Part shown: positions 1,943 to 7,854 of the stretch, in pieces
Layout: each line of letters starts with the position of its first letter
Position numbering within the stretch: the first letter of the stretch is position 1
Source of the DNA: Bacillota bacterium
GTDB taxonomy: Bacteria; Bacillota_A; Clostridia; Lachnospirales; WQUN01
Reading direction: 5' to 3'
Assembly (NCBI GenBank): GCA_009786175.1
Contig: WQTQ01000113.1
Coordinates: 1 to 8,252 of the forward strand
Length of the DNA: 8,252 nt
Program-made: the position numbers and the translations under genes
The notes under the pieces: model-generated
Told to the model about the DNA's origin: nothing
Databases searched by the model: none
The model's input: only the letters and a program-made list of their open reading frames with translations

Positions 1943-1999
1943 AAAAAAAGCAAGTCCCCCCTGATATCACATCCGCCAATGTGATATCAGGGGGGACTT
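1943..1999 (-). terminator. Rho-independent terminator of the LysM protein/histidine kinase operon
   Basis: A perfect 19-bp inverted repeat (arms 1952-1970 and 1981-1999) with a 10-nt loop. Reading on the minus strand it is followed after two bases by seven T (1943-1949), the form of an intrinsic terminator. It lies 25 nt after the kinase stop and just before the -35 of the aldolase operon, so it separates the two same-strand operons. On the plus strand the stem is not followed by a T run. Each arm contains the 8-bp palindrome TGATATCA. Confidence 0.88.
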
Positions 2000-2024: not shown

Positions 2025-2636
2025 CTACATATTACATGGCATAGATACTGAAACTACACAGCCGCCGTCCGCGCCGCTTTCTATTTTAAGCTCGCCGCCT
2101 AACTGTTCTGTCAACCAGTAGCAGATGCATAATCCTATGCCGTTGCCGTGGGGTTTCGCCTGCAAGTTATCCACATATTCCCCATTGTTGTGAATAGTGA
2201 CGCGCAAACAGCCGCCTTTTTGTGCGGCATAAACCGCTATATACCTGTCGTGGTTTGTTTCCGTCACGGCTTCTGCGGCGTTTTTAAGCAGGTTGGAAAA
2301 AATAAGGCGTACGTGCTGCTCGTTTGCGTAACACAGCAGCGACGGTTCCGCGTTTAGGGAAAAAGAAATACCGGGCATGGCGGCCTGGTATTCCTTTACC
2401 ATTTCTGACAGGGTTTCCGTGATGTCTATTACACAAGGGGATGTTTTATTATGGGCTGCCAACAGTAATTCTTGCACCAAATCGCAAATGTCCAGCAGTG
2501 CTTGTTGAATATAATTGCAATATCCGTCAATGCAAGGGGATACATCCGACTGGCGTATTAGACTAACATATGCCATTGCCAACGCCGCCGGGCTTTTTAT
2601 TTCGTGGGCCAAGGCCACTGCCATGTTAGGCATCAT
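2025..2636 (-). CDS. Sensor-less cytosolic histidine kinase
   Basis: A 203-residue kinase made only of the dimerisation/phosphoacceptor helix pair and the ATPase domain. AVALAHEIKSPAAL (6-19) is the H-box, with His11 the expected phosphorylated residue. IFSNLLKNAAEAV (112-124) is the N-box with Asn115 and Asn119. IHNNGEYV (148-155) sits where the G1 box should be, with Asn150 in place of the adenine-contacting Asp. GNGIGLCIC (164-172) is the G2 box. No transmembrane or PAS/GAF region precedes the H-box. The ATG overlaps the stop of the upstream LysM gene (ATGA) and no strong ribosome site is seen, which suggests translational coupling. A second ATG follows at once. No response regulator is in view, so it may feed a distant regulator such as a Spo0A-type phosphorelay; that is inference. 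The kinase family is clear, the partner unknown. Confidence 0.88.
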   Translation of the reverse strand: MMPNMAVALAHEIKSPAALAMAYVSLIRQSDVSPCIDGYCNYIQQALLDICDLVQELLLAAHNKTSPCVIDITETLSEMVKEYQAAMPGISFSLNAEPSLLCYANEQHVRLIFSNLLKNAAEAVTETNHDRYIAVYAAQKGGCLRVTIHNNGEYVDNLQAKPHGNGIGLCICYWLTEQLGGELKIESGADGGCVVSVSMPCNM

Positions 2637-3958
2637 CGCTGTGGCAGGGCAATTGTCCGGCCCGCAACAATATGATCCGGGTCTTCAAGGCCGTTTAGTG
2701 CCATAATTTCTTCCACCATTCCCACGTTACCAAAGAAATACAGGCTAATCCCAAGCAGGCTGTCACCGGGCCGGATTGTGTATGTGGCCGGGATAGATGG
2801 CATTGCTGCTTCCGAATAGTAATAGGCCTGCGGCAGCGGTTCGGGGGATGGCAGCGGTTCTGGCTGAGGCAGATATACCGGTTCTGCCGACGGCGGTGCG
2901 GGCTGAACCGGCGGCTGCGCTTCAACGACTTCTTCCGGCGTGGCTGTGTCGTACACATGGGTGTCGAAATGCGCACTGCTTTCCGGTACAACAGGTGGGT
3001 TTGTTTCTGCAAAAACCGGGGCAAACTCTAAGTTAGAAATTTGTGCAAACAAATTCCTGTGTGCGGTGACTAATTGACGTATTTCACCTTCCATACGGTC
3101 TATCCGGTCTTGGTTTCGTATCAGCCCCACCCCCATTACAAATGACACCACAAACAGCACCGCGCACAAACCGGCAAGCAGGCTTGAAGGACGTTTTTGG
3201 TCTGCCCGCAAGCCCCGCCTCTTTAGGCGGTTTACCCGGTGGCGTCGAATCACTTCTTCCGGGTTTGCTATGTGATGTGTGGTTATCTCGTTGTGGTCAT
3301 CTTCATAGTCCTCGTGCATACCTTGTAAAGTATCGTATTCATCCGGTACCCCTTCCACCGTGGTAAGTTCGACAAACGTGGGCGGCGGTGGGTAATCTGC
3401 AGTTTTGTTGGTTAACATATACTCGTGCATGTTTACATTTTTTTCGTAGTATATGAAGTAGCCGCCAACGTCCGCAAGCCTGTCTGCAGGTGTTACGGCA
3501 TTTGGGTTAGCCGCGTAAAACGCATTAACGCGCTCTAGCGGGTCCATTACAAACAGCACTTGGTATGGCTTTGTAAACTGGCGCAAATGATATGCGGCAT
3601 AACGTTGGTTTAAGTAGGTGCCATAGCTTGGCTGGGATTGCATCCAGCCTACAACCTCTTGCCCGGGGAAATGCTCTTCCAGCATGGCTTCGGCATATTC
3701 GGCACTTTTGTGTGAAAAGCGCAGATACCCTTCCGCCTGTTCGGCATACATGCCGTAAATCGCGCCCGATATAAACAGAAAAGATTGGCCGTCTATCAGC
3801 ATGTGACGTCCTACCAGGTAAGCAAGCCGTTCGTCATACCCGCCGGACGCCGCATACTGCTGCAGAAAGGTGCATACGTAATCTTCCATGTAGATACGTA
3901 ACCCGCTTCCAATACTGCCTATTTGCTTTATGTTGGCAGGTAATGTAAAATCGTTCAT
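2633..3958 (-). CDS. Membrane protein with degenerate MPN/JAMM-like domain and C-terminal LysM domain
   Basis: 441 residues in a mosaic layout. Residues about 12-185 form a globular cytosolic domain. Its core VVGWMQSQPSYGTYLN (102-117) followed by PYQVLFVMDP (131-140) strongly recalls the MPN/JAMM metalloprotease fold (VVGWYHSHPGFG...DP in Rpn11). The metal motif HxHx7Sx2D is lost: the positions are Gln107, Gln109, Asn117 and Tyr120, so it should be catalytically dead. Next come an acidic linker (about 190-235), a basic stretch with many Arg/Lys (239-256), one transmembrane helix (about 259-280), a short coiled coil (281-310), a Pro/Glu-rich stalk (about 318-378) and a LysM domain (about 392-438, TYTIRPGDSLLGIS) that should bind peptidoglycan. 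The basic stretch predicts N-terminus inside, LysM outside. ATG at 3956-3958 is chosen for its ribosome site; the frame is open 41 codons further upstream but overlaps the promoter. Function unrecognised; it is coupled to a histidine kinase gene. Confidence 0.85.
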   Translation of the reverse strand: MNDFTLPANIKQIGSIGSGLRIYMEDYVCTFLQQYAASGGYDERLAYLVGRHMLIDGQSFLFISGAIYGMYAEQAEGYLRFSHKSAEYAEAMLEEHFPGQEVVGWMQSQPSYGTYLNQRYAAYHLRQFTKPYQVLFVMDPLERVNAFYAANPNAVTPADRLADVGGYFIYYEKNVNMHEYMLTNKTADYPPPPTFVELTTVEGVPDEYDTLQGMHEDYEDDHNEITTHHIANPEEVIRRHRVNRLKRRGLRADQKRPSSLLAGLCAVLFVVSFVMGVGLIRNQDRIDRMEGEIRQLVTAHRNLFAQISNLEFAPVFAETNPPVVPESSAHFDTHVYDTATPEEVVEAQPPVQPAPPSAEPVYLPQPEPLPSPEPLPQAYYYSEAAMPSIPATYTIRPGDSLLGISLYFFGNVGMVEEIMALNGLEDPDHIVAGRTIALPQR

Positions 3959-3973: not shown

Positions 3974-3992
3974 CTTTTTATGGTACAAGCGT

Positions 3993-4021
3993 ATCATACG
4001 GAAAAGTAAATTATTGGTAAA
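3993..4021 (-). promoter_or_regulatory. Sigma-A type promoter of the LysM protein/histidine kinase operon
   Basis: On the minus strand -35 TTTACC (4016-4021, four of six), 17-nt spacer, -10 TATGAT (3993-3998, five of six). It lies 34 nt upstream of the ATG at 3958, in the divergent gap shared with the ytvI-like gene. No equally good promoter for the plus-strand gene could be found in this gap. Confidence 0.6.
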
Positions 4022-4071
4022 ACATGAAGTCGAAAAAAAGTTTTCATCTTCAATCAACGACTTGAAGCGAC

Positions 4072-4085: not shown

Positions 4086-5150
4086 ATGAACGAGTTTTAT
4101 TGCAAACACAAGTACCGCATAGACCGCGCCGCGTTTTTTGTGCTTATTACCATTGTTGTTTATGTATTTTTTACGGTACTGTTCTCGTATCTTGCTCCGT
4201 TTTTCTTTGGGCTGCTAATTGCTTTATTAATGGAGCCGCTTGTGCGTATAATTACAAATAAACTGAAATGGAAGCGTTGGATTGCGTCACTAATTTGTCT
4301 GTTGGTTTTTATAGCCCTAATTAGCAGCCTTGGGGCGTGGCTGGTTACAACACTAATCCGTCAGGTTTCTGCTTTTGTGGAATCTGCCCCGGTACACATA
4401 GAGGTCCTTGGCGAGCAGTTTGACGATGTTAATTTACGCCTGGCGCGGCTGGAAGACGCCTTGCCGGAAGGCTGGTATATCCCAAACATCGAAGAAATAT
4501 TGCTTGCATTGGTAACCATTTTTTTAGGCGAAGGTGTCCGCGACCAAGGCGTTCGCCTGGCAACAATTGTTCCAAATTTTTTCTTAAATACGATTATCGC
4601 GTTAGTGAGCGCGCACTTCTTTATATCGGATAGGGAAAACATATTTAATTCTATTAAAAAAGTGTGCCCCAAATGGATATCCGGCCAAATGAGCCAAACA
4701 AAGAAAGGCTTTTCCCGTGCAATGGGCGGATACTTCCGCGCCCAGTACATTCTTATGCTGGTTGTGGGTATTATCAGCATTGTAGGGCTGTTGATATTGG
4801 GCAATCCATACGCCCTGTTACTTGGGTTATTACTTGCTGCTTTAGACTTTTTGCCAATTGTGGGAACCGGGGCTGTTTTTGTACCTTGGGCACTGCTTAG
4901 CCTTGCAATGGGCGATTTCCGCCATGCAATTGGTTTAGCGGTTATTTACGGGGTTATAACTATTACACGGCAAGTGATGCAGCCAAAAATCTTGGGCGAT
5001 CAAATGGGGGCCCACCCACTGGCGTCACTAATGTCGATATTTATAGGCTTTCGTATATTTGGGCTTTTGGGACTGGTAATTGGCCCGTCCCTGCTTATGA
5101 TTTTTACCGCAATATACGAAACAAGACAGGAAGAAGAGGAGAGAATATAA
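4086..5150 (+). CDS. ytvI: AI-2E family / YtvI-like integral membrane permease
   Basis: A 354-residue polytopic membrane protein of the AI-2E transporter (UPF0118) superfamily. Hydrophobic segments lie at about 14-35, 36-58, 67-92, 160-181, 221-239, 241-275, 280-297 and 312-343. A soluble loop occupies about 93-158. The family core is visible as LDFLPIVGTGAVFVPWAL (253-270) and QPKILGDQMGAHPLASLMS (299-317), followed by a glycine-rich last membrane segment. This pattern is closest to the sporulation membrane protein YtvI of Firmicutes; the transported substrate of that subgroup is not known. The protein ends in an acidic tail (EEEERI). It forms an operon with hflX, which starts 1 nt after its stop. 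It is divergent from the LysM/kinase operon with 127 nt between the start codons. The superfamily is certain; the YtvI subgroup is likely but not proven. Confidence 0.88.
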   Translation: MNEFYCKHKYRIDRAAFFVLITIVVYVFFTVLFSYLAPFFFGLLIALLMEPLVRIITNKLKWKRWIASLICLLVFIALISSLGAWLVTTLIRQVSAFVESAPVHIEVLGEQFDDVNLRLARLEDALPEGWYIPNIEEILLALVTIFLGEGVRDQGVRLATIVPNFFLNTIIALVSAHFFISDRENIFNSIKKVCPKWISGQMSQTKKGFSRAMGGYFRAQYILMLVVGIISIVGLLILGNPYALLLGLLLAALDFLPIVGTGAVFVPWALLSLAMGDFRHAIGLAVIYGVITITRQVMQPKILGDQMGAHPLASLMSIFIGFRIFGLLGLVIGPSLLMIFTAIYETRQEEEERI

Positions 5151-6539: not shown

Positions 6540-6546
6540 CATGATT

Positions 6547-7854
6547 ATGGCATACGAAACTGAAAAAATAGAATTTAAGTCAAATACACTTGGTGATATT
6601 TACAAAGAGATTATTGCCTTTGCGAACACAGACGGCGGCTTTCTGCATATTGGTATAAACGATGACGGAGAAGCTACTCCACTACTTGATGTGGATGATA
6701 CCTATACACGAATCACAAACGGCATTCGGGATGCCATTGCGCCGGATGTGACAATTTTTGTGAAGTACACTCTTGCAGACAATAAAGCCATCCATATCGA
6801 AATAGGTGAAGGTTCCTACAAGCCCTATTACTTAAAATCAAAAGGAATAAAACCATCCGGTGTATACGTCCGTCAAGGCTCATCATCTGTACAAGCATCT
6901 CCGGAACAAATCCGTCAAATGATTAAAAATGCAGATGGTGACATTTTTGTAGAATTGCGTTCATTGGAACAAGAACTGACCTTTAATTTCTGTTCGGAAA
7001 TTTTCGCAAAAAATAAAGTTGAATTTTCACAGGATAAATACAATATCCTTGGGATTCGTAACCACGCACAGCAGTTGTACACGAATTTAGGGTGGCTTCT
7101 TTCTGACCAATGTACTCACAGCGTAAAGGTAGCTGTATTTGTTGATGAGCAAAACACGATTTTCCGTGATCGCAAGGAGTTTACCGGTTCTGTATTAAAA
7201 CAGTTAGAGGAAACTTTTGATTATCTTCAGCTTTGCAATAAAAATCACTCTATTATTGACGGGCTTGTGCGAAAAGACTATTGGGATTACCCGTCAGACG
7301 CTGTTCGTGAAGCACTCTTAAATGCACTTCAACATCGTGACTATGGGTTCTCTGGCAGCATCATTATCAATGTAAATGACAAGCAGATGGAGTTCATTTC
7401 CATTGGTGGATTGCTTCCCGGTATTTCGACAGAGGATATTCGTAACGGCATATCACAGACGCGTAACGAAAACCTTGCGAAAGTTTTCCAAAGACTAAAC
7501 TTCATAGAAACTTATGGAACAGGAATAAGGCGTATTTTTAAACTTTACGAAGATTGCCCTGTTCCTGTTACGATAGATGTAACTCCAAACTCCTTTCGGA
7601 TAACTTTGCCAAACATGAATGCTGCAAAAGAAAGCTTGGCATCTTCAATTAAGAGTCCATTAACTCCACAAATGCAAACCTTGCTCAATTATCTAAAAGA
7701 GCATGAAGATGCTTCTGATGAGGAAGTGCAGGCATTATTGGGCATTAAGCGAACGCGGGCATTCAACTTGACAAAACAGATGTCGGATGCAGGATTGTTG
7801 ACGATTGTAGGGCGTGGAAAAAATCGCAGATTTGTTTTGACTGAAATCCCGTGA
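6547..7854 (+). CDS. Schlafen AlbA_2-type ATP-binding putative transcriptional regulator
   Basis: A 435-residue protein of the COG2865 type (AlbA_2 plus ATP-binding domain), often annotated as a transcriptional regulator or RecG-like helicase; the helicase name is misleading. The AlbA_2 nucleic-acid-binding domain opens with EKIEFKS (6-12) and AFANTDGGFLHIGINDDGE (24-42). VYVRQGSSS (107-115) closes it. The GHKL-like ATP-binding part is seen at DAVREALLNALQHRDY (251-266), SIGGLLPGIS (285-294), RNENLAKVFQRLNFIETYGT (306-325) and GIRRI (326-330). A C-terminal winged helix (about 372-432) holds SDEEVQALLGIKRTRAFN. Start chosen at 6547 by the ribosome site. The repeats over its promoter suggest autoregulation. 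It looks more AT-rich in codon choice than hflX and is followed by broken genes and an IS-like end, which suggests transfer. Its target and ligand are unknown. Confidence 0.88.
   Translation: MAYETEKIEFKSNTLGDIYKEIIAFANTDGGFLHIGINDDGEATPLLDVDDTYTRITNGIRDAIAPDVTIFVKYTLADNKAIHIEIGEGSYKPYYLKSKGIKPSGVYVRQGSSSVQASPEQIRQMIKNADGDIFVELRSLEQELTFNFCSEIFAKNKVEFSQDKYNILGIRNHAQQLYTNLGWLLSDQCTHSVKVAVFVDEQNTIFRDRKEFTGSVLKQLEETFDYLQLCNKNHSIIDGLVRKDYWDYPSDAVREALLNALQHRDYGFSGSIIINVNDKQMEFISIGGLLPGISTEDIRNGISQTRNENLAKVFQRLNFIETYGTGIRRIFKLYEDCPVPVTIDVTPNSFRITLPNMNAAKESLASSIKSPLTPQMQTLLNYLKEHEDASDEEVQALLGIKRTRAFNLTKQMSDAGLLTIVGRGKNRRFVLTEIP

Follow-up and report, generated by a model that had tools for sequence, protein, structure and literature searches.

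Rpn11, CSN5, and BRCC36, the archaeal and eukaryotic JAMM+ proteins, keep the zinc site of the MPN domain. Among spore proteins, SpoVID and SipL have a C-terminal LysM domain and are not known to contain an MPN domain or a membrane helix. Rpn8, CSN6, and eIF3F (MPN-) are called inactive (PMC6043591). Bacterial LysM-associated JAMM proteins are already named in a figure legend of the same source, which gives no function for them; thus, the combination of an MPN domain, a membrane helix, and LysM has a precedent. According to PMC1779556, YukD of Bacillus is not conjugated to other proteins, and conjugation by YukD-type operons is therefore only putative. In clostridia, orphan kinases, some of which are described as cytosolic, influence the onset of sporulation (PMC11210211). 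In the open-access literature, we found no paper on a dead JAMM protein with LysM or on a link of such a protein to sporulation.

We analyzed a stretch of 8,252 nucleotides (the window) from a Bacillota bacterium of the order Lachnospirales. A gene on its minus strand (2633..3958) encodes a pseudo-JAMM (MPN) protein of 441 amino acid residues with a membrane helix and LysM. The ATG at 3958 lies behind AAAGGAG, the reading frame is open over all 441 residues of the translation, and the start M-x-D-F-T-L-P is common to most relatives among the matches listed. On the same strand, the MPN-fold domain (approximately residues 7–190; 3389..3940), assigned by AlphaFold, a fold search, and hhalign against JAMM-LysM proteins, is followed by a membrane helix found by hydropathy and charge count (approximately residues 259–280; 3119..3184), a poorly conserved Pro-rich stalk with a mean column identity of 0.35 (approximately residues 320–388; 2795..3001), and a LysM domain supported by Pfam and PDB (residues 393–439; 2642..2782). 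LysM was the sole confident Pfam match (E = 3.9e-6), and a match to JAB fell under the cut-off (E = 0.09). Because the N-side flank of the helix is strongly basic, a single-pass topology with the N-terminus inside and the C-terminus outside was predicted. The preliminary description of this DNA had placed an MPN-like core, a membrane helix, a stalk, and LysM in one chain, and Pfam, AlphaFold with the fold search, and hydropathy confirmed this order.

Both the AlphaFold model and the fold search identified the N-terminal domain as an MPN fold, in agreement with the previous assignment from motif likeness, and chance likeness to MPN was ruled out by these two analyses. In the hhalign alignment, E43, Q107, Q109, N117, and Y120 fill the E/H/H/S/D positions of JAMM proteins, respectively. 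The upstream Glu of the JAMM-LysM proteins is kept as E43, and the HxHx7SxxD zinc motif is absent, the residues in its place being exactly the four substitutions described before (Q107, Q109, N117, and Y120). The window protein is probably a pseudoenzyme of the LysM-associated JAMM family, with the loss of isopeptidase activity predicted from the motif. The earlier interpretation was supported overall; it did not include Glu43, the neighboring kinase, or the link to sporulation.

The next gene on the minus strand (2025..2636) encodes a soluble, sensor-less histidine kinase of 203 amino acid residues with an HEIKSP box and HATPase_c, and its ATG and the stop codon of the MPN-LysM gene overlap as ATGA. 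The kinase gene is immediately followed by an intrinsic-terminator-like hairpin (1952..1999, minus strand) with at least 20 pairs and a T run (−41.9 kcal/mol, z −7.96); the terminator scan returned three overlapping forms of this one hairpin versus 3.1 sites expected. A promoter-like TTTACC-17-TATGAT precedes the MPN-LysM gene (3993..4021, minus strand), in a region where the promoter scan yielded six sites versus 3.9 expected. The two genes look like one transcript because of this promoter-like site, the ATGA overlap, and the hairpin after the kinase gene. The promoter-like site lies inside an element shared with related loci (3980–4025, minus strand), which consists of TTT-N-CCA, 14–24 nt, and RGGCTTG or RCGCTTG before the MPN-LysM start. 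This element was present in 10 of 53 upstream regions, all ten from close relatives, and in none of 520 controls, and to our knowledge it matches no regulator site. The divergent neighbor on the plus strand (4086..5150) is ytvI, encoding a sporulation integral membrane protein (NCBIfam TIGR02872; 264 bits versus a cut-off of 198). Farther along the plus strand (6541–7854), a stretch of lower GC content (approximately 0.39) encodes a protein with Pfam matches to SLFN_AlbA_2 and HATPase_c_4.

The gene order was compared over 54 loci, comprising the window, 13 loci from the search for its relatives, and 40 picked from genomes of the order. In 28 loci, the same-strand gene at +1 encodes a kinase, and the other 26 have none at that position, indicating that the MPN-LysM protein can exist without an adjacent kinase. 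In L016, L081, L082, L124, L125, and L127, a membrane protein of approximately 380–425 amino acid residues replaces the kinase after the MPN-LysM gene, mostly with a CvpA-like protein also there (both named by eye). The 28 kinases consist of 202–231 amino acid residues, except for one of 314, and all contain an H-box, which starts at residue 10–28 and is preceded by only 9–27 residues. Pfam matched HATPase_c in all 28 and HisKA in 26 (the window kinase reached only E = 0.13 for HisKA), and no sensor family was found among the matches. Counted from the first possible start, the gap between the two genes was −4 nt in three loci, including the window, 1–54 nt in 21, and 101, 102, 182, and 213 nt in the remaining four. 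With two receiver queries, a receiver-like gene was detected within three genes in 3 of the 28 loci, always on the opposite strand. The window kinase, with HisKA and HATPase_c and no cognate regulator detected beside it by these two queries, corresponds to an orphan kinase. Since a kinase reduced to its phosphoacceptor and ATPase modules needs another protein as its signal source, the membrane protein encoded beside it is a candidate for this role. The pairing was observed in Q-x-Q, L-x-Q, H-x-Q, and Y-x-Q rows and therefore seems older than the window clade. On balance, we slightly favor a partnership between the MPN-LysM protein and the kinase.

The gene neighborhood also points to sporulation. 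YyaC (TIGR02841) was encoded by a divergent neighbor in 21 of the 54 loci and YtvI by a divergent gene within two genes in 17, and 34 loci had one or the other in divergent orientation at a distance of no more than two genes. Of the 295 genomes sampled from the order, 215 had a match to the MPN domain and 216 to SpoIVA (208 over the cut-off); 201 genomes had both, 14 had only the MPN domain, 15 had only SpoIVA, and 65 had neither (odds ratio 62). FlhA, a control with a patchy distribution, was present in 188 genomes, 134 of which also had the MPN domain, and exhibited no link (odds ratio 0.80, p = 0.50). SpoIIR was present in 11 of the 14 MPN-only genomes, suggesting that most of these are sporulators in which SpoIVA is missing or was missed, and in 11 of the 15 SpoIVA-only genomes, which suggests that these 11 are sporulators without a detected MPN copy. 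Two other SpoIVA-only genomes, G087 and G212, had weak SpoIVA matches and lacked SpoIIR.

Independent pairs were then compared on an RpoB tree of 81 genomes (55 of 266 concordant and 26 of 29 discordant). With raw SpoIVA calls, 5.4 pairs changed in the same direction and 3.3 in the opposite direction, which was not significant (median p = 0.73). When SpoIIR decided the discordant genomes, by a rule set after these genomes had been seen and with one SpoIIR-less genome still scored as sporulating because it matched SpoIVA strongly, the pairs were 7.1 to 0.0 (median p = 0.016) and, in the reverse direction, 6.8 to 0.1. On an RpoB tree of concordant genomes only, with a usable locus in 55 of the 60 genomes drawn, at least 8 changes of the joint trait were required; two rows of that tree, G021 and G218, apparently represented wrong reading frames. 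Upstream motifs were searched by consensus in 53 regions, with starts guessed by rule. Spo0A-box, SigE-like, and SigH-like sites were found in 7, 4, and 2 regions, respectively, versus means of 0.7, 1.0, and 0.2 in shuffled sequences, which reached these counts in 0, 3, and 1 of 100 shuffles, respectively; SigF, SigG, and SigK motifs were found in none. No known sporulation promoter site recurred across the 53 regions, and the upstream region of the window gene contained none of these six motifs. A link of the MPN-LysM protein to sporulation is likely, not proven, and we consider it quite probable that the protein is a sporulation protein.

A sporulation protein of this kind may instead be a structural part in spore building and not a sensor. 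LysM would then anchor it in the wall that separates the mother cell from the forespore, and the MPN domain would recruit coat or engulfment proteins, much as in spore LysM proteins such as SpoVID and SipL. Its presence in 201 of the 216 SpoIVA-positive genomes and in the 26 of 54 loci without a kinase at +1 is consistent with such a role. However, a structural role does not account for the kinase gene next door at 28 of the 54 loci, which are spread over several motif classes of the tree, and the predicted single-pass topology with the N-terminus inside is unlike the soluble SpoVID and SipL. We regard this role as somewhat unlikely and retain a signaling partnership with the kinase as the preferred reading.

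The origin of the family was examined through its intact relatives. A class-wide search detected the MPN domain in 20 of 341 genomes, nine within the order sample (n = 295) and 11 outside it. Of these 11, four have E/H/H/S/D, two have E/H/C/S/D, and five have G-x-R in place of H-x-H. One of the four genomes with an intact site is Tindallia, as an identical protein is so named, a genus in Peptostreptococcales. A profile built from nine LysM-JAMM proteins yielded 2989 relatives, the best 120 of which were inspected. In total, E/H/H/S/D was intact in 17 rows, 7 from the four genomes and 10 of the best 120 of 2989. By hhalign, the window group matched the intact JAMM-LysM group without gaps over the motif (probability 99.8%, E = 8e-29). 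All seven intact proteins from the four genomes have a hydrophobic stretch after the MPN part. Pfam found JAB together with LysM in the protein of L118 and in one protein per tandem pair of L113, L114, and L115, the three genomes that encode intact proteins in such pairs; in these three, the tandem membrane proteins flank the RING-type gene.

In all four intact-site genomes, genes for a YukD-type ubiquitin-like protein (Ubl), a ThiF-type E1, an E2, and a Prok-RING-type protein adjoin. In L118, Pfam identified YukD, ThiF, UQ_con, and Prok-RING_1 with E-values of 1.3e-9, 5.7e-57, 2.9e-9, and 7.1e-11, respectively, and the same four families were found in L113. In L114 and L115, YukD and ThiF were found by Pfam, the E2s could be aligned to their counterparts in L118 and L113, and the RING-type genes were named by likeness only. 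The E2 of L113 has an FHA domain at its end, and a trypsin-like protease (Pfam) lies beside the tandem JAMM operon of this genome. No Ubl, E1, or E2 gene was found by Pfam among the eight window proteins scanned. In the order, a search made with E2 only gave a match in 3 of 295 genomes, versus 215 of 295 for the MPN protein. The dead MPN domain might still recognize modified proteins or the tail of a Ubl, in the manner of Rpn8 and CSN6, considering its kinship with a branch encoded beside Ubl, E1, and E2, the retention of Glu43, and the fixed pocket residues; the near absence of a matching E2 from the order argues against this reading, which we consider improbable.

Within the order, several forms of active-site loss were observed. 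None of 61 order rows, which were chosen by hand so that the following counts are not frequencies, has H-x-H. Gln occupies the position of the second His in 54 rows, the first His is still present in nine, and eight of these nine also keep the Asp (seven E/H/Q/M/D and E/H/Q/S/D in L089); the JAMM Glu is kept in 50 rows. A tree was calculated from 81 of 85 rows after removal of the four motif columns. It placed 58 order rows on one branch (100/96), separate from the 17 intact rows (97/84). When the tree was rooted on the intact rows, the H-x-C pair and the G-x-R group fell between the two, and H-x-Q occurred at two places inside the order branch, so that the sequence of losses is not readable from the tree. 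Homologues with intact HxH, which the preliminary description had named as a sign that this copy is merely decayed, do exist; however, they form a separate branch in ubiquitin-like operons, and the decay reading fails. Because the intact proteins branch apart and none of the 61 order rows has H-x-H, the window copy belongs to a branch that is inactive as a whole. Several partial forms of active-site loss survive in living species. L116 and L117 (L098 and L101) have H-x-C with all other JAMM residues kept, where Cys is a possible zinc ligand. L119, L120, and L121 form a further dead branch with a GWYGVR-type stretch instead of HxH. Flagellar genes lie nearby: Pfam identified FliD in L119, and fliD, fliS, and flaG were recognized by eye in the other two. 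The E/H/Q/S/D of L089, the seven E/H/Q/M/D proteins, and the E/H/C/S/D of L098 and L101 would suit a metal enzyme with other ligands, but both His and the Asp are gone in the window clade and Gln is a poor zinc ligand, making such an activity very improbable there.

The replacements in the window clade are themselves conserved. The search with the window protein yielded 364 relatives, and the best 120 of these were compared together with the L013 protein. Q-x-Q...N..Y, for whose QxQ part a conservation check had been proposed, was kept in 119 of these 121; one had L-x-Q...P..Y and one was gapped. Where a family was named for relatives among the matches listed, it was Defluviitaleaceae (Lachnospirales according to NCBI). 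The JAMM Glu was present in all 118 non-gap rows of the clade among the matches listed. Conservation was 0.99–1.00 at positions 43, 107, 109, 117, and 120, compared with a mean of 0.81 for the MPN domain; since 37% of the domain columns reach at least 0.98, the pocket is among the best-kept parts and is not alone. The membrane helix (0.78) and LysM (0.78) are kept, and the stalk (0.35) and the linker at residues 200–255 (0.43) are variable. A second search, with a Lachnospiraceae relative as the query, found 676 relatives, the best 120 of which mostly have L-x-K, L-x-V, or similar. H-x-H was found in none of 242 sequences (the best 120 of 364, the best 120 of 676, and others), one of which was gapped at the site, and the JAMM Glu in none of nine aligned Lachnospiraceae rows. 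A functionless, decayed copy, to which the lost motif might point, is extremely improbable, and a single decayed copy is ruled out, by the same four replacements in 119 of 121 relatives (the best 120 of 364 and L013), the conservation of the MPN domain, membrane helix, and LysM but not of the stalk, and the frame open throughout.

Taken as a whole, a model in which a former JAMM enzyme acts as a pseudoenzyme in sporulation, most likely as the sensor of the adjacent kinase, has in our judgment an even chance of being correct. It starts from features computed directly, namely the fold, the motif loss and its conservation, the intact relatives in ubiquitin-like operons, the co-occurrence with SpoIVA, and the gene order. 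The family probably descends from a catalytically active zinc isopeptidase that already had a membrane helix and LysM and whose gene accompanied a bacterial pathway for ubiquitin-like conjugation. In Lachnospirales (Defluviitaleaceae and Lachnospiraceae), almost every genome lacks the E2 of this pathway, and the protein would have lost its active site while keeping the fold, helix, and LysM. The cytoplasmic MPN domain may now be a docking module for proteins or peptides, and the external LysM may read or hold peptidoglycan. The state of the wall outside would change the MPN domain, which would recruit or switch the kinase, and the kinase would donate phosphate to a response regulator that acts in sporulation. 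The obvious choice is Spo0A, although its assignment as the target is tentative. At loci without an adjacent kinase, the gene for the partner may lie in another part of the genome, or the protein may have a structural role. The more specific proposal, that a dead deubiquitinase-type enzyme supplies the membrane-spanning sensor, and the next gene the catalytic part, of a sporulation kinase divided between two proteins, with the state of the wall gating spore formation in Lachnospirales, is possible yet speculative. A scaffold or a relay of signals through the membrane, as the preliminary description suggested, gains indirect support from the neighboring kinase without a sensor and from the setting among sporulation genes, and stays a putative role. 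The membrane protein is a concrete candidate for the input of that kinase, and if the model is true, a ubiquitin-pathway fold is tied to spore formation in a large clostridial order.

Among known systems, the bacterial LysM-associated JAMM proteins have the same arrangement as the window protein, from MPN domain through membrane helix to LysM (hhalign E = 8e-29); those with an intact site lie in Ubl/E1/E2/RING operons, whereas the window branch is dead and lies beside sporulation genes and a kinase. The sporulation kinases (KinD) and clostridial orphan kinases share the HisKA and HATPase core with the neighboring kinase, for which the NCBIfam KinD model was the second-best match, far under its cut-off; unlike KinD-type sporulation kinases, the neighboring kinase has no sensor domain. 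SpoVID and SipL resemble the window protein in the C-terminal LysM and the connection to sporulation. Rpn11, CSN5, and BRCC36 differ from it in having no membrane helix or LysM. Rpn8, CSN6, and eIF3F likewise have a dead MPN domain, which serves as a structural partner, but they are parts of large soluble eukaryotic complexes. If the proposed history is true, the intact and dead LysM-associated proteins would be a bacterial counterpart to the split between active and inactive MPN subunits in the proteasome lid and the COP9 signalosome.
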